From: Bacteriovoracaceae bacterium
GTDB lineage: Bacteria; Bdellovibrionota; Bacteriovoracia; Bacteriovoracales; Bacteriovoracaceae
NCBI GenBank assembly: GCA_023137315.1
Contig: JAGLPP010000052.1
Span: 1 to 34,271 of the forward strand
Length of the DNA stretch: 34,271 nt
Direction: 5' to 3'
This document shows positions 14,177-24,625 of the stretch, piece by piece. Every line of letters begins with the position of its first letter. The first letter of the stretch is position 1. The notes below the pieces were generated by a model. That model worked only from the letters and a program-made list of their open reading frames with translations, was not told where the DNA came from and made no database searches. The position numbers and the translations under genes were made by a program.

Positions 14177-17128
14177 GTGAATTTTAATTTCAATCTATTC
14201 AAGGAACTCATGGCCCATCGAGTGGAGGACATTCTGATTATTTCAAGTCCGTACGAGGCATTTGTAATGCAAGAGGATGGTGGCATGCTTGAACATGTTT
14301 TTGCAAGCTACAGGGGGATATCTCTCACAAGACCTCCAACATTTACCAAGGTATCAACTGCTCAAGAGGCCCTGAAGGTCATTGAAATAAAAAAATTTGA
14401 TCTTGTTGTGATTCACTATCCAAAATATCTTGGTATGAACGCTGTAACTCTCGGAAAAAAAATCAAGGAGGTTGATAAAAATGTACCTGTTGTTCTTCTG
14501 GCACACGGGTTTCGCTCTATTTCACAGGAATATGTTCAGAAACTTCCTCCGGACAGTATTGATAAAATATTTGTCTGGTCAGGAAACAGGCATATTATGT
14601 GGACTATCATCAAGTGGGTTGAAGACCAACTAAACATTGATCATGACATCGAAATTGCAAAAGTCAGGGTATTGATTCTCATTGAAGATTCACCATATTA
14701 TTACTCATCAATTCTTCCCATACTTTATAAGGCAATTGTTTCACAAACACAGGAAGTCATTGATGACACGCTGAATGAGGAACAGAGTCTCTGGAAGATC
14801 AGGGCACGGACAAAAATTCTTCTGGCGAGTAACTATGAAGATGGAATGAGACTTTATGAAAAATACAGGCCATATCTAATAGGGGTTTTTTCGGACACAA
14901 GATACAGCAGGGACGGAAAAATCGACGAAAAGGCCGGACTTGTCTTTTTAAAGCGAGTTAGGAATGAGTTGCCACATCTTCCCATCTTATTATTGTCCAA
15001 CGAGGGGATCAATCGTAAAAATGCAGTTGAAAATAAAATTTACTTTCAGGATAAAAACTCCGCAGCACTCCATAATGAAATTCGGCGATTTATGAAGAAA
15101 CATATGGGATTCGGGGATTTTGTTTTTCGTCTTCCTGACGGCAAGGAAGTGGCCAAGGCGGGGAATTTATATTCACTGGAAAAAAGTCTGAAGGACATTC
15201 CCAACCAGTCACTGCTTTACCATATAAAACTCAATCATTTTTCAAGTTGGCTCATGGCAAGAACGGAAGTTAATCTTGCATCAAAGTTTATCAAGGCGAG
15301 ACAACAGGATTTTTCCAACATGGATGAAATCAGAAAATTTCTTATATCCTCGCTTCGCCAACACAGGCTGAATATTCAAAGAACAACTGTGGCGTCATTT
15401 CAACAAGACCATGATTACGCCCTGGATATTGATTTTCTTCGATATGGTGAAGGGTCACTTGGCGGCAAGGCCCGTGGTCTTGCCTTTATGGCAAAATATC
15501 TTCATGACAATCAAAAAGAATTTGATGAATTTGATGAGATAAAAATTTCAATTCCTAAAACCCTGGTGATATCCACTGACAGTTTTGACGAGTTTATTGA
15601 AAAAAACGACCTTGCTTATTTTGCAGAAACAGATAGTCCAAATGAAAAGACCGCACAAATATTTAAAAGTGCCAGTTTGCCCGACTCACTACTTAAAACA
15701 CTTAAAATCTTTCTTGAGAAAATACACACTCCTCTTGCCGTACGATCATCAAGTCTTTTGGAAGACAGTCGCGATACCCCGTTTGCCGGCCTCTATTCAA
15801 CATATATGCTGCCAAATAACAATTCATCTCTTGATTCCAGACTTAATGAACTTACAACTGCAGTTAAACTTATTTATGCTTCTGTATTTTTTCGTGAACC
15901 GATGGCATTTTCGAGAACGACCCAAAACCGTACTGAAGAGGAAAAAATGGCAATTCTCATTCAGACTGTCGCTGGAAACATGTATGATAACTACTATTAT
16001 CCTGCGATTTCCGGAACTGCCCTGTCATATAATTTTTATCCAATTGAGCCGATGAAGGCCGAAAATGGTGTTGCAAACATGTCTCTTGGACTTGGGAAAA
16101 TTGTTGTTGAAGGCGGACAGACTTTGCGTTTTTGTCCTGAATACCCTGAAATACTGCCACAGTTCTCTATCGTAGATGATACGCTTAAAAACTCACAAAA
16201 ATCATTTTATGCCATTAAAATGGATGAAGGGCCCAAAGAGCTTGGAATAGATAACGATGCCTCTCTAAAAAAACGAGATATTCATGATGCTGTTAACGAA
16301 GAGCCGATTCAAATGCTTGCTAGTGGATACGATCCATTGGACCATAGAGTAAGGGATATTTTCATGAACGGCCAAACACCAATCATAACTTTTTCCCGAA
16401 TTTTGCGTTACAAACAAATTCCGCTTCCAAAATTAATCGGAAAAATGCTCCAAGTCGGTCGTCTTGGTTTTGGCCATGAAGTGGAGATAGAATTTGCCTT
16501 TAATGTGGCATCAAAACAAAATGAATCACATGAATTTGTCCTGCTTCAGATCCGTCCATTAACAACCATACATGAAAGCATTGATGCAAAGATTACAAAA
16601 AAAGAAATTTCAAAGAGTATATGTCATGCAACCAATGCCCTTGGGCAGGGAATTATTTCCAACATCATGGATATAATTCTCGTAAAGCCGGAATCCTTTA
16701 GTGCACATAACAGTCGGAATATTGCAATGGAAATTGGAACCTTGAATGCCAAACTTGCAAAAGAAAATCGGCAATATCTTCTGGCAGGTCCAGGACGCTG
16801 GGGTTCCAGTGACCACTGTCTCGGAATACCCGTAAAATGGAATGATATCTCAAATGTTTCCACAATAATCGAGGCAAAGGTTAAAAATCTCAATGCGGAT
16901 CCATCACAAGGAACCCATTTTTTTCAAAATATCACATCCCTGGGAATACCATATTTTACCGCCTGTGATCCAGATAGCCACGTTGACTGGGAATGGTTTT
17001 TAAACCAAAAGGTTTGTCTTGAAACAGAATTTATTCGCCATATCCGGATAAGCAAGCCGATAACTGTCAAGATTAATTGCAAAACAAACGAGGGGGTGAT
17101 CCTTCCACCTGGCGATCATTCAAAGTAA
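14177..17128 (+). CDS. Receiver-like domains fused to PEP/pyruvate-binding ATP-grasp domain (PEP synthase-like)
   Basis: 983 residues, GTG start after GAGGT (14164-14168). Residues 15-150 look like a degenerate response-regulator receiver (FDLVVIHYP has His80 where the phospho-Asp is expected). Residues 163-310 look like a second receiver that keeps an acidic pair (E170-D171), a candidate phospho-Asp D240 in IGVFSD, S274 and K293. Residues about 423-830 are the PPDK/PEP-synthase N-terminal ATP-grasp: LRYGEGSLGGKARGLAFM (421-438), AVRSSSLLEDS (521-531), FAGLYSTY, and LLQIRPL at its end. The phosphohistidine swivelling domain (TSHA-type motif) and the PEP-binding barrel of true PEP synthase are missing. 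The C-terminus instead has a GPGRWGSSD block and a PSQGTHFFQN block, seen in large PEP/pyruvate-binding proteins of unknown role. Cytoplasmic; a regulated phosphotransfer function is inferred. Confidence 0.8.
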   Translation: MNFNFNLFKELMAHRVEDILIISSPYEAFVMQEDGGMLEHVFASYRGISLTRPPTFTKVSTAQEALKVIEIKKFDLVVIHYPKYLGMNAVTLGKKIKEVDKNVPVVLLAHGFRSISQEYVQKLPPDSIDKIFVWSGNRHIMWTIIKWVEDQLNIDHDIEIAKVRVLILIEDSPYYYSSILPILYKAIVSQTQEVIDDTLNEEQSLWKIRARTKILLASNYEDGMRLYEKYRPYLIGVFSDTRYSRDGKIDEKAGLVFLKRVRNELPHLPILLLSNEGINRKNAVENKIYFQDKNSAALHNEIRRFMKKHMGFGDFVFRLPDGKEVAKAGNLYSLEKSLKDIPNQSLLYHIKLNHFSSWLMARTEVNLASKFIKARQQDFSNMDEIRKFLISSLRQHRLNIQRTTVASFQQDHDYALDIDFLRYGEGSLGGKARGLAFMAKYLHDNQKEFDEFDEIKISIPKTLVISTDSFDEFIEKNDLAYFAETDSPNEKTAQIFKSASLPDSLLKTLKIFLEKIHTPLAVRSSSLLEDSRDTPFAGLYSTYMLPNNNSSLDSRLNELTTAVKLIYASVFFREPMAFSRTTQNRTEEEKMAILIQTVAGNMYDNYYYPAISGTALSYNFYPIEPMKAENGVANMSLGLGKIVVEGGQTLRFCPEYPEILPQFSIVDDTLKNSQKSFYAIKMDEGPKELGIDNDASLKKRDIHDAVNEEPIQMLASGYDPLDHRVRDIFMNGQTPIITFSRILRYKQIPLPKLIGKMLQVGRLGFGHEVEIEFAFNVASKQNESHEFVLLQIRPLTTIHESIDAKITKKEISKSICHATNALGQGIISNIMDIILVKPESFSAHNSRNIAMEIGTLNAKLAKENRQYLLAGPGRWGSSDHCLGIPVKWNDISNVSTIIEAKVKNLNADPSQGTHFFQNITSLGIPYFTACDPDSHVDWEWFLNQKVCLETEFIRHIRISKPITVKINCKTNEGVILPPGDHSK

Positions 17129-17247: not shown

Positions 17248-17541
17248 GTGAGAATAATACTTGTTCTTTGTTTTCTGGCATGTTTTTTCAATCTTTCATT
17301 CGCTGGTAATCCTGAACAATCTATAAATTACGAACCTTTATCCATTGATGGAACTCATGTCACCAAAAAGGAAACAGCGTCCGATCGAATGAAGAAGCTT
17401 CGGGCACGACTTGAAAAACAAAATGAGCTTTTAGTCAGAAAAAAAATCGAACTTCTTCGACTTCGAAAAGAGTTTGCACTGCAAAAAAGAATCGAAAAAA
17501 TGTTTGAGAATCAAATGCAAACATCAGGAAAACTTAATTAA
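17248..17541 (+). CDS. Small exported coiled-coil protein
   Basis: 97 residues, GTG start with AAAGGGG at 17234-17240. Signal peptide MRIILVLCFLACFFNLSFA, cleaved before GNPEQ. Residues about 43-90 form a strongly charged heptad-like helix (KKLRARLEKQNELL, RKKIELLRLRKEFALQ), suggesting a coiled-coil dimer or trimer in the periplasm. No family recognised. It has its own apparent promoter. Confidence 0.65.
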   Translation: MRIILVLCFLACFFNLSFAGNPEQSINYEPLSIDGTHVTKKETASDRMKKLRARLEKQNELLVRKKIELLRLRKEFALQKRIEKMFENQMQTSGKLN

Positions 17542-17899: not shown

Positions 17900-20800
17900 A
17901 TGAAATTTTCGAAAGCAATGAAATTCCTGTTAATCAATGTTCTGATCTTATGTTTGGTAAAAGGTGTGCTGGCAACGGGACCAGTTCAGGATCAGATTCC
18001 TTCCGGAAGCACCAGGGAAATTAAAACTGCTTATGAAGCTTACAAAATGCTAAGACGCTCACACCATACGAAAGAGCCTATTGGACTGGAAGTAAGAAAT
18101 GCCACAAAAGAAATTAATCGAGGGCTTGTTTCCTATGGAGCTGAAAAAGAGGGTTCATCCAGTCGTATTACCAAGGTCATGGGCCCTACAGTCCAGACGT
18201 TGGATCTTTCACTAAAAAAACTTTCCGAAGAGGAGAGGAAGGCCTTTCTTTCTGAATTCATGGATCGGGTAAAAAGGGGAAAGGGTGTTGTAAGTTCCGT
18301 TAGAAAACTTGATGGTACAACCATAACCGTTGATCGATCCAAATTTCAAAATATTGATTTTTTCTCCCTTGATCTGAATAAACTTGAACAGCATTTTAAC
18401 GCTTGGACAGATCAAACCGAGGATAATCCGTTTTCTTTTATGTCGAGGAAACTCAGGCAGGATATTCATGGTGGAAATGTTTCCGGGCTATCGCCACCGT
18501 TTACAGAATCAATAACCGACTTCGATAATGTTAAATGGGTACCACTTTTTGGCGATGCTGAACGTTTTATAGAGGCCTGTCACTCGCTTGATACAATCAC
18601 CGGATGGGAAATCAATTTCAAGCCACAGTATTCCTACGGTGAATTCGAGGAAATGATTGATTGGTTTAGAAAAATCATGGGAACAAACGGAAATCTTTTT
18701 CAGTCCCCCGGACACCAAAGAATTGTTTTTACCACTCCGGAACTCGCGGAAAAATCTGATAAAATTTTTAAACGTAAAATGGCACATATGTACAAACTCA
18801 CCCAGGCCTATATCATTTTAAGGGGACTTTCAGGAAATACAGGTATCAACCTTTCACGCTATAAGGAAGTTCAATACGATAGATATATAGAGACGCTTGA
18901 TACTGGTCGTGGCTCCATAAGACTCGAAAATGATTATATAATGGATGGAACACGCTCGATTGAACTTCGGGCCGGAACAAAAGATCCCGTCGTAAGCAGT
19001 TTTATTCACCAGATGATATCCTCCAGGGTTGCAACCCAGGATTTTTCAGGAATTACGTTTTCCGATAAGTGGACATTGATTCCAGAAGAGATGATAGAAA
19101 CTTCAGATAAAAATATCGGTATTTGGGAATTGAATAAAAACATCGGTAAACGTTTTGATGTTGAAGATGATATTGTTAATCAATGTACTAAAAATATCAA
19201 GGAAATCAGAAAATCCTACTACTCGCTTGGTTCTTCCAACAGTATCTCCATAGAAATGGGTTACTGGGCACCATTCTGGCAGTGGGATGAGGCCCCATTT
19301 CTTTCTGATGGCAAAAAGAAACTTTTAAAGAAGGCCACAAAATCATTTATCGAAACCATGGCAAAATTGGAATCTCCTAATGAGGACAACGTAAAAAGAC
19401 TTTTTCAGGATTGGGCGAGGGTATCCGAACTTGACAGGGATATTGAAAACTATCTTAGACCTAAGAAGGCAAGTACCGGAAAACAACCGGATATTTTCAA
19501 GATACCAGACACAATGAATAGAAAATTTGATGTCAACAAAATCGACATGGGGATTGAATATTCTGCCCATTTTCCAATGGATAACAAGTCTATTATGACA
19601 AATGAATTAAGTGATCACAAAAGGGCATGGCTTGTTTCAACATTCGATCTTACCAACGATGAACGTGCTGATGTCATGAAGGAACTTGCTGAAAAGATGG
19701 CAAAAAATCTTGGAGTGAAAAATCCCGAAGTGAAAATGATTGAGGCTTCCAATGAACATGGACACAAGCTTGATCTTGCTTTTGAATTCAAGGATGCAAA
19801 GGACAGGAAGTGGCGCATAGAGTGGGATGGTATTGGAAGGAGTTATACAAAGACAGGAGAGCTTGTTTCCGAATCACCAAGAGGTGGACATATTGAAATT
19901 GTTACTCCCAAATTCAATCCGAATTTTAATGAGATTAAGTCAGTCTACGAGGCATTAAATGAGTCCAGCGTCGTTCCATATTTTAAACTCGGTGGTTCCC
20001 ATATCAATGTCGATTTAAAACCATTTATGGAAAGTGATCCCAAATCTCTCGCAAGAGTAACCTCACTTTTTCTTCAATACAGGGGACTCCTTTCTCTCAT
20101 GTATCAGCACCCAAACCGATTTATGGCCGCAGAGCCTTTAAAGATTTCCAGTAATCTGGCGGCTCAGCTTGCCAACTTTAATGGAACACATGATGATTTA
20201 AAAAAACTTCTTTTTAATGAAAGATATTTCAATACCCGTATTGGAAGAAAGAGCCGTTATACCCAGCTTGATCTTTCATCCTATTATCAGGATATTATTC
20301 CTGAAGAATTTATTACTGAGGACTTTGATATTAAAAATCCAAAGGTACAGTGGAGAAGACAATTTCGTGTTGATCCCGATATCAGAAAAATGGAATTCAG
20401 ACTTTTTGGCGCTCCGGAGGATGCTTATGAATCCGCTCTTCAACTAAAACTTGTTCGTGCCATTTTAAACAAGGCCATGAATGATGACACTCCTCTAACT
20501 GGGGTGGTTTCCAAGTACAGTTACGAAGATTATTTGAATAATCCAAAACTTGCCTATAAACATCTTGATGAAATGTGTGACGATCTTCATCTGCCAAAAG
20601 ATCAATATGATATGGCCGTCTCACGTGGACTCTCACAGAGTAAATTTACGATTAATTCAAATAGCTACAAACCTGTTTCTTACAAGAAAAGTCTTCATCC
20701 TGAAATAGAAGGATGGGGAAAGGCACTTGATAGATCACGACCAAAGGCCGAGGAAATTAAAAGCGAAGGGCGAAAAGCGAATATAAGCGAAAACGTTGAG

Positions 20801-20968
20801 GAACCTATCGCCAGATGGGATAAAAAACGTTTAGACGCCATTTCCAGGGCCGATGAGTTACGCTCAAATGTTAGTGTGAATGATTTAAAAAAATCCGGAC
20901 ATATAATAAGAAATACCAAAGAGGCTTCCGATGCAGGTTGTGCCAGTATAATTGCCAACTTCTTTTAA
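17900..20968 (+). CDS. Large exported protein with two tandem amidoligase/glutamine-synthetase-fold-like domains
   Basis: 1022 residues with GGAG five bases before the ATG; signal peptide 1-25 (ending GVLA). The second half carries an ordered series resembling putative amidoligases (COOH-NH2 ligase fold): GIEY (551-554), WRIEWDGIGR (638-647), HIEIVTP (664-670), GGSHINVDL (698-706), GRKSRYTQLDLS (782-793) and MEFRLFG (831-837). The first half repeats the same order more loosely: IGLEV (61-65), GWEINFKP (235-242), GHQRIVF (271-277), GRGSIRLEN (336-344) and SIELRAGT (353-360). I infer an internal duplication. In half two the second Glu of the usual GxExE is lost (Ser555). The His pair has become His-x-Asn, so ligase activity, which would need ATP outside the cytoplasm, is doubtful. 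A charged Lys/Glu tail (940-1010) follows. Function unknown. Confidence 0.65.
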   Translation: MKFSKAMKFLLINVLILCLVKGVLATGPVQDQIPSGSTREIKTAYEAYKMLRRSHHTKEPIGLEVRNATKEINRGLVSYGAEKEGSSSRITKVMGPTVQTLDLSLKKLSEEERKAFLSEFMDRVKRGKGVVSSVRKLDGTTITVDRSKFQNIDFFSLDLNKLEQHFNAWTDQTEDNPFSFMSRKLRQDIHGGNVSGLSPPFTESITDFDNVKWVPLFGDAERFIEACHSLDTITGWEINFKPQYSYGEFEEMIDWFRKIMGTNGNLFQSPGHQRIVFTTPELAEKSDKIFKRKMAHMYKLTQAYIILRGLSGNTGINLSRYKEVQYDRYIETLDTGRGSIRLENDYIMDGTRSIELRAGTKDPVVSSFIHQMISSRVATQDFSGITFSDKWTLIPEEMIETSDKNIGIWELNKNIGKRFDVEDDIVNQCTKNIKEIRKSYYSLGSSNSISIEMGYWAPFWQWDEAPFLSDGKKKLLKKATKSFIETMAKLESPNEDNVKRLFQDWARVSELDRDIENYLRPKKASTGKQPDIFKIPDTMNRKFDVNKIDMGIEYSAHFPMDNKSIMTNELSDHKRAWLVSTFDLTNDERADVMKELAEKMAKNLGVKNPEVKMIEASNEHGHKLDLAFEFKDAKDRKWRIEWDGIGRSYTKTGELVSESPRGGHIEIVTPKFNPNFNEIKSVYEALNESSVVPYFKLGGSHINVDLKPFMESDPKSLARVTSLFLQYRGLLSLMYQHPNRFMAAEPLKISSNLAAQLANFNGTHDDLKKLLFNERYFNTRIGRKSRYTQLDLSSYYQDIIPEEFITEDFDIKNPKVQWRRQFRVDPDIRKMEFRLFGAPEDAYESALQLKLVRAILNKAMNDDTPLTGVVSKYSYEDYLNNPKLAYKHLDEMCDDLHLPKDQYDMAVSRGLSQSKFTINSNSYKPVSYKKSLHPEIEGWGKALDRSRPKAEEIKSEGRKANISENVEEPIARWDKKRLDAISRADELRSNVSVNDLKKSGHIIRNTKEASDAGCASIIANFF

Positions 20969-21124
20969 TAATTTTAAGGAGTTAGCTCTTTGTCTTTGTC
21001 TGTTACTTTTTTAGACATGGTATGAATTATTTTCAAAAACAGTCCTTGTTCATGAAATTTATATGATTTCAGATTAAATTATATACTGCGTCACATGTGT
21101 ATGATTTTTTCAAGGAAATTTGTC

Positions 21125-24100
21125 ATGAGAATAAAAACCACGTTTTTCATCATTATATCACTGCTTTTTTTGGGAATGTTTTCAGTTATGGACAATGCCT
21201 TGGCCAAAAACGTCTATGGGGAACTCAAAAAGAATGTACCAGTTACTGAAGAGGCCTTGGTCGTTGTAAATATTCCACTGGATGACATTCGCCAGGAAGT
21301 AAAAAATAATCTCATAAAAGAAGGTTCTCCGATTAAAAAGCTCACGCGTTTTGATATGGACCCTGTAAATCGCCTGGTCATCCTTGCTGGAGAAATAGAA
21401 CTTCCAGCTTCGACATTTGACTCTATAAAAGAACAATCAGACGGATTGGCGGAGATCTCAAAATCCTTCAACTTTAATGTCAGCTTTAAACTTCCAACAG
21501 CGAAAAAACTTGCTTTTACACGTTATATGCAACTTGAATTTGTATCCTTGAAACTTGACGGAGTTGAATATATCAGCGCTCTTCCGATCTTTACAAGGAT
21601 TGCTTCCATCATTATGGCAAACAGCAATCTCGTAAACTTTTTTTTGGATAAGAATATACAAGGCAAAAATGAACTTTCTAAAAACGATATAAATCTTAGA
21701 ATCAGACAGTTTATTGAAAACAAAAACATTCGCTTCAGGGATAAAACTGTAAGTTTCAAACTTGATCTGGCTCAATTTGCGGATACAAAAAGATTCGCCT
21801 TCATGGAACATCTGCGTCTTTGGCAATTTTGTCCGATTTTATTCAAGGGAACAAAAGATGAGATTTATTTCAGATTGGAGGCCGGTAAGGGGAAACCGTC
21901 AGGGAAATGGCTTAAAGATCTGAAAAACAGAAATGAAAATGACAAGCAGACTCTCACTTCTGTTCGTGAAGAGTTTTACAGTAAAAACTCCGATACGAAT
22001 GTTCTTATAAAGGAATTAAGATCATATTTTGAGGCATTCAAAAAGCAGATTAACCTTCCAAAAACCACAAAACGTGCAGACGCTGAAATCAGCGGTTTCT
22101 TCAGAAGGATAGGCGTGAAGGCATTTTCGGCATTAAACAAAAAAAATGAAATTTTCACGGCAGATCCAGAACAGGCCTGGTTTGATTTTCAAAAGTCAGC
22201 AGAAGAACAGATAAATTACTTTCTGACTGACATGAAGAGACGTCTTATCTCTGAAACGAACCGTAAAAATGGTGGTAATGTCTCTACAGACAATCCTTTT
22301 CTTGAAAAGAGGTTGAGTCAAGCAGCTTTATCACAGTCCATAAGATATTTTCGCGATATAAAAATAAACGGACAAAATCTTTTTGGCGAAATCAATTTAA
22401 TACTTGCTCCGCAACTTCCAGGACTTATTGTAAGAGGAACAGTAAATATTGATCTTGGATTTCTTTTCAAAATGGCCGATGAAAATGCTGATATCGACAT
22501 AGATAGCATTCCCGCATCCGTCTATGGCAGCAAGTTTGGAAAGGGTATCCCGTTTGAACTTAGTCTAAGAATTGAAATGTTTGATAACGGTCAACTGGGT
22601 ATTGATGTAAAACAGATTTCCCTGCTTGGCAAACCAAGACTTTATTTTTCACACGAACAGGGAACAGGAAAGTTTCTCATAGATTTTACAAAAATCATGA
22701 TCGCAAAAACAATGGCCTCACAAATTATTGATATGTATGAAAATCAAAATGAAACTCCGGTAGAATTGAGTGCCAGAAGGGAAAAAGAGCATCAGGAACT
22801 TATTAAAAATATCGAAAATCAGATCAGTCTCTATGGAAATCTTGATAAAACATCACTTGCAGCTTTGCTAAAACTTACCAAAATTGACATTGAAAGCAAT
22901 CCTTTCATTCAAAAGGGCAGGGAGTATGTGGAAACCAAGGCGAAACAAATATTCAAGGATCTTGTGAAGTATGATCAACAATCCGGTCTTCTGATATTCA
23001 AGCTTGATCCTGCGGCATTTTCGCCAAAAATAATGGAAAGCAAAAACACTGTTCAGGTGTGGAATATTGAACCTGTTTATGATTCAATAATGGATTCGAC
23101 TTTTATTGATATTGCCATTGGAAGTGGAGTGCGTTCCAACAACTACGTGAAGAACATTTTTGCGAGAAAGGAATACATTGACAGCGAAATCTTCACAAAC
23201 ACTGGTGATGATGAAGGTCCGGTGGATATGCATACCAAGATGAATCTTGAATATTTCAACAAGTTTCTCAATAAAATTCTTACTGATGCTTATAATAAGC
23301 AGAATGAGGATGTTAGAAGGCAAATGGAGGAACAGATTGAAAAAAGCAGCTATCTTGTAAAAGATGCCAATATTCAGGTGAAGAAAAACAATGTCATGCA
23401 TGTAAATGCAACATTTACACATCTTAAAAAATCAAAGAGGGGATGGTACAACCCTGTTCGCTGGATAAGAGGGGAGTGGCCAAAAAATATCAAAATGAAA
23501 AGTATTTCCATGAGTGCTGAAATGGGTATTTCCGTTGATCGACTCTCAAAGTATCTTGACGGTCTTAATTTAGCCGAGAATGAAGTATTCTGGGGGGAAG
23601 AGGTTTTGAAAATTGATCTTCAAAAAGCACACTTTACCATGAAAGGTGATACCTCCATTTTTGATCAGATCGTAAATCTTGCTGCTGGTGATATTGATTT
23701 CACCACTTCCACCATTGGTAGAAAACTCAAGGTTGTAATTCTTCGTGCTCTTGGCGATTATCTCAATCCAACTAATCCAAAAGAGAATGGAAATGCCACG
23801 CTTGGTGGTATCAAGATCAACCGTTACGCAAAACTCTTTACTCACAAACATGAGATTTTAATTCAGATTAATCCACGTATGGCCGGACCGGCCTTTGAAA
23901 TGAATCTTGTTCCAAATGGAGAATGGAATGGAAGAAAAGTCGGACTGATTCTTGACAAGGATCAAAATTATCTAAGTTTCGATTTCAAAATTGATGGAAC
24001 CGTTGCTGCCATTGATAAGGTGCGGCTCCTTGAAATAATGAAAGATGCACAAATTATGCTTGATGATTGTATTAAAATCAATAGCGGAGAAAAACTTCTT

Positions 24101-24625
24101 AAGATCTTAAATGAGAAGTCCTTGTTTGATAAACTCTTTTATAACTCTGATATCGCAAGGCCAAGTCTTATGCATAAATTCAAGGCAGTTGTATATCTCT
24201 ATAACGGTCTTGTGGATATTCAAGGGAGTGACATTCTCTATATTAATTCAATATATGAAAATGTTGGTATAAATCCCGGCGAAATCAGCAAAAAAGGAGT
24301 TAAGAGAATTACGGCCACAGGAGTTGAGTTAATGTATTTTCTGGCCCCTGCTGTTATGATTAATCTCAAATTGGGACAACTTGTCGAGAAGATCAAATCC
24401 TTTGGAATTCAAGACAAAGTTCAATACTTTAAAGATTTTGAAAAGGAGCATGCCGATCTTGCAAATCGCATAATAAATCCAATTCTGGAAAAATACGAAA
24501 GCGATTACGCCGAACAAAACCAAAAGATCGTCAACAAAGGCCCAACAGACTGGAACTTCGCTTTTTTTCCGGACGCTTTATTTGCCAATAAAGCTTACAA
24601 GGTGATCAGCAAAAACTATAAATGA
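21125..24625 (+). CDS. Giant exported protein of unknown family
   Basis: 1166 residues from the ATG at 21125, supported by AAGGA eight bases upstream and a clean signal peptide (MRIKTTFFIIISLLFLGMF to DNALA). An in-frame ATG at 21095 would add ten residues. The mature protein alternates long amphipathic strands (such as SFKLDLAQF, LIVRGTVNIDLGFLF, ELSLRIEMFDNGQLGIDVK, FKIDGTVAAI) with charged helices. There are no obvious catalytic motifs and no transmembrane helices after the signal. The mix of strand pairs and helices resembles large lipid-binding or envelope-spanning proteins (TULIP- or AsmA-like), but that is only an impression. A possible minus-ten TATACT lies at 21082-21087. It follows the tandem-domain protein gene by about 155 bases on the same strand. 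Confidence 0.7.
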   Translation: MRIKTTFFIIISLLFLGMFSVMDNALAKNVYGELKKNVPVTEEALVVVNIPLDDIRQEVKNNLIKEGSPIKKLTRFDMDPVNRLVILAGEIELPASTFDSIKEQSDGLAEISKSFNFNVSFKLPTAKKLAFTRYMQLEFVSLKLDGVEYISALPIFTRIASIIMANSNLVNFFLDKNIQGKNELSKNDINLRIRQFIENKNIRFRDKTVSFKLDLAQFADTKRFAFMEHLRLWQFCPILFKGTKDEIYFRLEAGKGKPSGKWLKDLKNRNENDKQTLTSVREEFYSKNSDTNVLIKELRSYFEAFKKQINLPKTTKRADAEISGFFRRIGVKAFSALNKKNEIFTADPEQAWFDFQKSAEEQINYFLTDMKRRLISETNRKNGGNVSTDNPFLEKRLSQAALSQSIRYFRDIKINGQNLFGEINLILAPQLPGLIVRGTVNIDLGFLFKMADENADIDIDSIPASVYGSKFGKGIPFELSLRIEMFDNGQLGIDVKQISLLGKPRLYFSHEQGTGKFLIDFTKIMIAKTMASQIIDMYENQNETPVELSARREKEHQELIKNIENQISLYGNLDKTSLAALLKLTKIDIESNPFIQKGREYVETKAKQIFKDLVKYDQQSGLLIFKLDPAAFSPKIMESKNTVQVWNIEPVYDSIMDSTFIDIAIGSGVRSNNYVKNIFARKEYIDSEIFTNTGDDEGPVDMHTKMNLEYFNKFLNKILTDAYNKQNEDVRRQMEEQIEKSSYLVKDANIQVKKNNVMHVNATFTHLKKSKRGWYNPVRWIRGEWPKNIKMKSISMSAEMGISVDRLSKYLDGLNLAENEVFWGEEVLKIDLQKAHFTMKGDTSIFDQIVNLAAGDIDFTTSTIGRKLKVVILRALGDYLNPTNPKENGNATLGGIKINRYAKLFTHKHEILIQINPRMAGPAFEMNLVPNGEWNGRKVGLILDKDQNYLSFDFKIDGTVAAIDKVRLLEIMKDAQIMLDDCIKINSGEKLLKILNEKSLFDKLFYNSDIARPSLMHKFKAVVYLYNGLVDIQGSDILYINSIYENVGINPGEISKKGVKRITATGVELMYFLAPAVMINLKLGQLVEKIKSFGIQDKVQYFKDFEKEHADLANRIINPILEKYESDYAEQNQKIVNKGPTDWNFAFFPDALFANKAYKVISKNYK

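Follow-up and report, generated by a model that had tools for sequence, protein, structure and literature searches.

Amidoligases, the Amidoligase_2 family (PF12224) among them, were reportedly described by Iyer et al. in 2009. The protein studied here resembles Amidoligase_2 in its C-terminal half, which matches the family profile, carries the GxE, D-G, E-x-x-x-P, H, R and E-x-R motifs and belongs to the same fold class. It differs in that it scores at the profile cut-off, lacks the second Glu of ExE and the second His, is exported, is fused to a second, probable and diverged glutamine synthetase (GS)-like domain and ends in a C-terminal Cys tail. YbdK and related glutamate-cysteine ligase-type enzymes (1r8g, 1tt4) share the fold of the C-terminal domain (Z 12.1 and 12.0) but have no detectable sequence similarity to the protein. 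YbdK has one domain and no export signal. Glutamine synthetases share the fold of the C-terminal half and probably that of the N-terminal half, but identity is ~10% over the aligned part and no GS profile matched. The ExE, H and ExR residues appear to be placed as in glutamine synthetase. PafA and Dop are GS-fold enzymes acting on protein side chains and are among the structural matches of the N-terminal domain, but they are cytoplasmic and no sequence similarity to them was found. The actin crosslinking domain of bacterial toxins is a GS-family ligase delivered into the host cytosol (PMC2908040), and is named here as a precedent alone for such a ligase acting in another cell.

The window, by which we mean the whole stretch of DNA that was analysed (34,271 nucleotides from a Bacteriovoracaceae bacterium), contains an ORF of 1022 aa for an exported protein with an Amidoligase_2-like and a probable second GS-like domain (17900..20968, forward strand, as are all features below). 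A GGAG ribosome-binding site precedes the ORF, which starts with ATG at 17900 and whose stop codon ends at 20968. Its GC and GC3 are those of the neighbouring genes, giving no sign of recent foreign origin. The predicted signal peptide spans residues 1-25 (MKFSKAMKFLLINVLILCLVKGVLA; 17900..17974), with cleavage probably after VLA, and residues 23-37 form a low-confidence segment in the full-length model. The sequence-only reading had called an exported ORF at these coordinates, which we confirmed, and the signal holds at the level of the family: most members have their strongest hydrophobic stretch at the N terminus, 29 of 44 qualify under a strict cut-off and six have a clear lipobox.

To define the family, we searched related genomes. 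Homologs were found in 14 of 59 related genomes and, with an alignment search, in 64 of 369 Bdellovibrionota genomes. A scan of species-representative genomes found no homolog when the window protein was the only query; an alignment scan of such genomes yielded 48 loci. Most of these 48 are labelled Bacteriovoracaceae, Halobacteriovorax, Bacteriovorax, Bdellovibrio or other Bdellovibrionota, and one lies in a MAG that has 44% GC and carries the label Lysobacteraceae; either a wrong label or a transfer may explain it. The family is almost confined to Bdellovibrionota. The family alignment comprises 46 sequences, with individual positions covered by fewer (44-46 for most, 38 for R337). Identity to the window protein is 21-42% across the homologs, and 23 positions are invariant even so. 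NCBIfam has no name for the window protein, and the family is unnamed in Pfam too. The literature searched, made up mostly of papers available without subscription, yielded nothing on the family; searches for amidoligase with periplasm or signal peptide returned no title on exported amidoligases, and the papers naming amidoligase and Bdellovibrio, as far as their accessible text goes, did not concern the family. This silence is weak evidence of novelty.

The sequence-only reading had proposed two diverged copies of an amidoligase/GS-like domain. For the C-terminal half (residues 541-924; 19520..20671) this is borne out by both sequence and fold. PF12224 matched the window protein at 8e-4 to 2e-4, with 19.8 bits for the whole protein, 21.8 for the C-terminal half and 22.4 in the genome search, against a curated cut-off of 22. 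The profile check proposed with that reading thus gave a match near the cut-off, and 35 of 39 homologous C-terminal halves also matched at E≤1 (best 1.9e-9). The full-length model, built from the 46-sequence alignment, had a mean pLDDT of 90.7 and a pTM of 0.90. Its best matches among solved structures were glutamine synthetases (Z 13.8, rmsd 4.6 over 271 residues), and YbdK matched model residues 546-924 (Z 12.1, rmsd 5.1 over 251). The C-terminal half is securely a divergent Amidoligase_2 domain of the GS superfamily.

In this domain E553, H620, H622, E641, D643, E666, H701, R783, E832 and R834 are invariant across ~45 homologs. The Amidoligase_2 motifs D-G/S, E-x-x-x-P, R and E-x-R are present in order and invariant: E641-W-D643-G644 (19820..19831) and the strand E666-x-x-x-P670 (19895..19909) in 46/46, and R783-K784 (20246..20251) and the terminal strand E832-x-R834 (20393..20401) in 44/44. 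H620-G-H622 (19757..19765; 46/46) is an invariant specific to the family. The GxExE first strand, for which canonical members have RRVGFEIEF, is incomplete. In G551-x-E553 (GIEYS; 19550..19558) the G and E are kept in 46/46, and the position of the second Glu, residue 555, is Ser or Thr in 46/46 (S in 35, T in 11). In the segment GGSHINVD (698-705; 19991..20014) the first His of HxH (HVH) is kept as H701 (45/45) and the second is replaced by N703 (44/45), with D705 in 45/45; the canonical relatives compared here vary at that position as well.

The N-terminal domain (residues 43-520; 18026..19459) was modelled alone with high confidence (pLDDT 92.5, pTM 0.90), and its probable relationship to the superfamily is seen by structure only. 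A search of 40 N-terminal halves against Pfam found no relevant family, including Pup ligase/depupylase (PafA/Dop); a search against the sequences of solved structures found no related match; and a comparison of N-half and amidoligase profiles gave nothing significant. The self-alignment of the two halves suggested by the sequence-only reading failed to detect similarity, with hhalign giving ≤5% probability, predicted secondary structure included. Foldseek with the N-half model was weak, with a best E of 0.045 to a type III glutamine synthetase. A second structural comparison returned GS, PafA, Dop, YbdK and McsB in nearly all of the best 50 rows, at Z 5.7-7.2 (best 7.2, rmsd 4.9 over 223), which falls short of what the tool regards as a clear match; the fold is for this reason called only probable. 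The PafA and Dop rows (Z 6.5-6.6) were tied with GS.

The motif order of the C-terminal domain is repeated on predicted strands of the N-terminal domain, which adds support for a GS-like fold there. E82-K83-E84 forms the ExE motif on strand 76-85 (18143..18151) and is kept in 45/45 sequences of alignment A2. E237 lies on strand 236-240 (WEINF; 18608..18610), at 40/45 in A2 and invariant once the N-terminal halves were realigned, and H272 (GHQ, strand 272-278; 18713..18715) is present in 46/46. The GRGSIR segment (18908..18922) holds R337, found in 35/38, and R341, invariant in alignment A3; the terminal strand carries E355-x-R357 (18962..18970), both in 46/46. E82, K83, E84, H272, E355 and R357 are present in every homolog covering them. 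The series that had been read from the letters, GAEKE 80-84 with GIE 551-553, WEINFKP from 236 with HIEIVTP from 664, GH 271-272 with SH 700-701, GRGS 336-339 with GRKS 782-785 and IELR from 354 with MEFR from 831, thus stands in the order described. It exceeds chance, because its polar residues are invariant or nearly so across the 46-member family.

We also considered that only the C-terminal half is GS-like, the N-terminal half having an unrelated fold and the parallel motifs being coincidental. The missing sequence similarity between the halves would agree with this, as would Z values of 5.7-7.2, a range in which the tool warns that a match can reflect a common arrangement, and Foldseek, which alone gave no E below 0.04. 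However, five families of one superfamily fill nearly all of the best 50 rows, and both the order of the motifs and their placement on strands are repeated; a forced, non-significant alignment of the halves places GAEKE opposite GIEYS and GHQ opposite GSH. We therefore regard an unrelated N-terminal fold as unlikely, though worth keeping in mind. Collectively, these comparisons suggest that the N-terminal half probably has the same GS fold in a much more diverged form, so that two copies of one fold are secure for the C-terminal and probable for the N-terminal half. The structure predictions and fold search proposed earlier revealed neither unrelated folds nor the absence of a GS-superfamily match.

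By motif order, the residues of both domains appear to correspond to the GS active-site set. From what is known of GS, the E...H...E set would presumably hold metal at the ATP phosphates, and E-x-R would end the sheet. The protein had been described as having lost part of its metal and His set. This is correct for the second Glu of ExE and the second His of HxH in the C-terminal half, but the remaining set is strictly conserved, and the implied decay by active-site loss finds no support, given the invariance of the remaining residues in both halves. This pattern argues for a maintained function rather than a decayed relic. A catalytically silent binding protein, its GS-like pockets kept for a metal, nucleotide, amino acid or muropeptide and serving in sensing, scavenging or adhesion, is a possibility that we consider unlikely but serious. 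ATP is normally absent from the periplasm, and export away from ATP would suit such a protein, as would the two missing C-domain residues and the long C-terminal extension that is HEAT-like in the one relative examined (PF13646 match). Such residues are, however, often relaxed in binding-only proteins, and here the E...H...E and E-x-R set is invariant in ~45 homologs at 21-42% overall identity.

The protein ends in a tail with a conserved Cys, C1014 (CASIIANFF; 20939..20965). A Cys lies ≤17 residues from the end in 36 of 43 complete homologs and is the only Cys in several members, including proteins of 2020 and 2075 aa; it stays terminal even with a ~1000-residue extension after the C-terminal domain. 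Seven complete proteins without this tail (L104, L108, L109, L110, L111, L013 and L018) form a divergent group whose single Cys instead lies just behind the signal peptide. The idea that a C-terminal Cys serves as a sorting signal throughout the phylum found no support: in 800 kb of a relative's genome, the ends of exported proteins showed only ~twofold enrichment in Cys.

Searching the phylum with PF12224 revealed many further proteins with an amidoligase domain. The canonical short ones have no signal, and several among L112-L141 have a signal peptide or lipobox, in architectures of ~370-1050 aa (exported examples are L120, L125, L127, L130, L132 and L138-L141). Export of this fold is thus not an isolated curiosity in the phylum. 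A Cys near the C terminus is also seen in the Amidoligase_2 proteins L127, L130, L132, L134, L137 and L139.

An exported CxxC/CFF protein is encoded directly upstream in 20 of 63 loci (some loci being the same contig twice), and papain-like peptidases (PF00112) lie near many of the loci having it. Other loci have a protein-glutaminase-like enzyme (Gln_deamidase_2, PF18626), a BPL_N-type protein or a subtilase as neighbour. Members of the CxxC/CFF family, for which Pfam and NCBIfam gave no name, are exported, have an invariant CxxC and end in a Cys tail that is mostly CFF plus one residue; examples are L185:8914-9954 (contig C215 of the window's genome), L019:6972-7952 and L202:9585-10574. The family occurs in 52 of 369 genomes, many of them without the double amidoligase, and often has a second copy elsewhere, so that the tie between the two is loose. 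In the window's genome, a CxxC homolog and a distant papain-like homolog are on other contigs, not adjacent to the ORF. The neighbouring exported papain-like peptidases and protein-glutaminase-like enzyme, together with the restriction to Bdellovibrionota, favour an extracytoplasmic protein or peptide chemistry. The data do not discriminate between the roles suggested by the sequence-only reading, namely binding, envelope modification or action as an effector in prey.

The CxxC gene of L202 adjoins a gene for a 454-aa lipoprotein (L202:10596-11957), which shares 47% identity with the N-terminal ~400 residues of a relative of 2118 aa. A protein-glutaminase-like gene lies on the other side of the CxxC gene, and the alignment search found no double amidoligase in that genome. 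In L070, a relative of this lipoprotein (L070:6705-7937) precedes the double amidoligase in one fused protein. The lipoprotein family has a conserved SPHSQNFL...RDLGDS motif and gave no family match; an IucA/IucC-like identity considered for L202:10596-11957 found no support in the sequence.

Within the window, a small ORF of ~97 codons with a GTG start (17249-17541) is directly upstream; it has a signal-peptide-like start and a coiled-coil-like body rich in Lys, Arg and Glu. An ORF of 983 aa (14177-17128) has a PPDK_N ATP-binding domain and, at its N terminus, a weak match of response-regulator type. Downstream, an ORF of 1176 aa (21095-24625) encodes an exported protein with no Pfam or NCBIfam match and with homologs of similar length in 10 other of 58 related genomes. 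It was rejected as a missing half of the ~2000-aa relatives, whose extensions do not match it, and as a partner, since genomes lacking the family have homologs of it too, and where both are present they are on different contigs.

We propose, with a probability of roughly 0.4, that the exported double-GS-fold protein is an active periplasmic or outer-surface enzyme that makes or breaks Glu/Gln amide bonds. The family member, exported and composed of a divergent Amidoligase_2 C-terminal domain and a more diverged superfamily relative at the N terminus, would act in the periplasm or on the outer surface, at the predator-prey interface, a placement suggested by the several relatives that look like lipoproteins. 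There it would make or break amide bonds at glutamate or glutamine side chains of peptides or proteins. Its partners may be among the products of genes that adjoin those of relatives: the exported CxxC protein, the papain-like peptidases or the protein-glutaminase-like enzyme. The N-terminal domain may provide a second active site or act as a substrate- or nucleotide-binding partner. If ATP is needed, its likeliest source would be the contents of prey under digestion. Against this proposal stand the normal absence of ATP from the periplasm, the missing second Glu (ExE) and second His (HxH) of the C-terminal domain, an N-terminal domain with Z below 8 and no sequence support, and the window itself, where the partner genes do not adjoin the ORF. 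For Halobacteriovorax marinus, a member of a nucleotide transporter family has been recorded (PMC5381601). We found no ATP/ADP transporter in the window's genome and a patchy occurrence in relatives, so that the H. marinus transporter does not decide the ATP question. The most specific form of the proposal, an exported, two-site amidoligase that draws its ATP from digested prey, which modifies or crosslinks proteins or peptides with exported partners and whose Cys tail is an attachment or partner-recognition signal, is one that we hold to be decidedly doubtful.

A related reading, which we consider rather improbable, is that of an ATP-independent or reversed enzyme on the GS fold, such as an isopeptidase, amidase or glutamyl transferase, with the depupylase Dop as a parallel. 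It would need no ATP outside the cytoplasm, where ATP is normally absent, and would fit both the Dop and PafA rows among the best N-domain structural matches (Z 6.5-6.6) and neighbours that act on proteins (proteases and the protein-glutaminase-like enzyme); however, no sequence motif links the protein to Dop, and the Z values are tied across all superfamily members. An effector delivered into the prey cytoplasm, modifying or crosslinking prey proteins with prey ATP, has a precedent in the actin crosslinking domain (PMC2908040) and would suit a family mostly confined to a predator-rich phylum, but it is very unlikely, since only a Sec-type signal is seen, lipoprotein-like relatives would stay on the predator, no delivery domain was recognised and some members come from MAGs of uncertain lifestyle.

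Amidoligases and glutamine synthetases are classical ATP-using enzymes of the cytoplasm, their fold normally serving to join acids to amines. An exported family with invariant active-site residues, together with the further exported amidoligase architectures of the phylum, raises the question of how this fold functions where no ATP is expected. Predators living inside other bacteria offer a possible answer, the ATP of the prey. Together, the conserved active-site residues and the export of this family suggest that this chemistry, or one derived from it, may occur beyond the cytoplasm.
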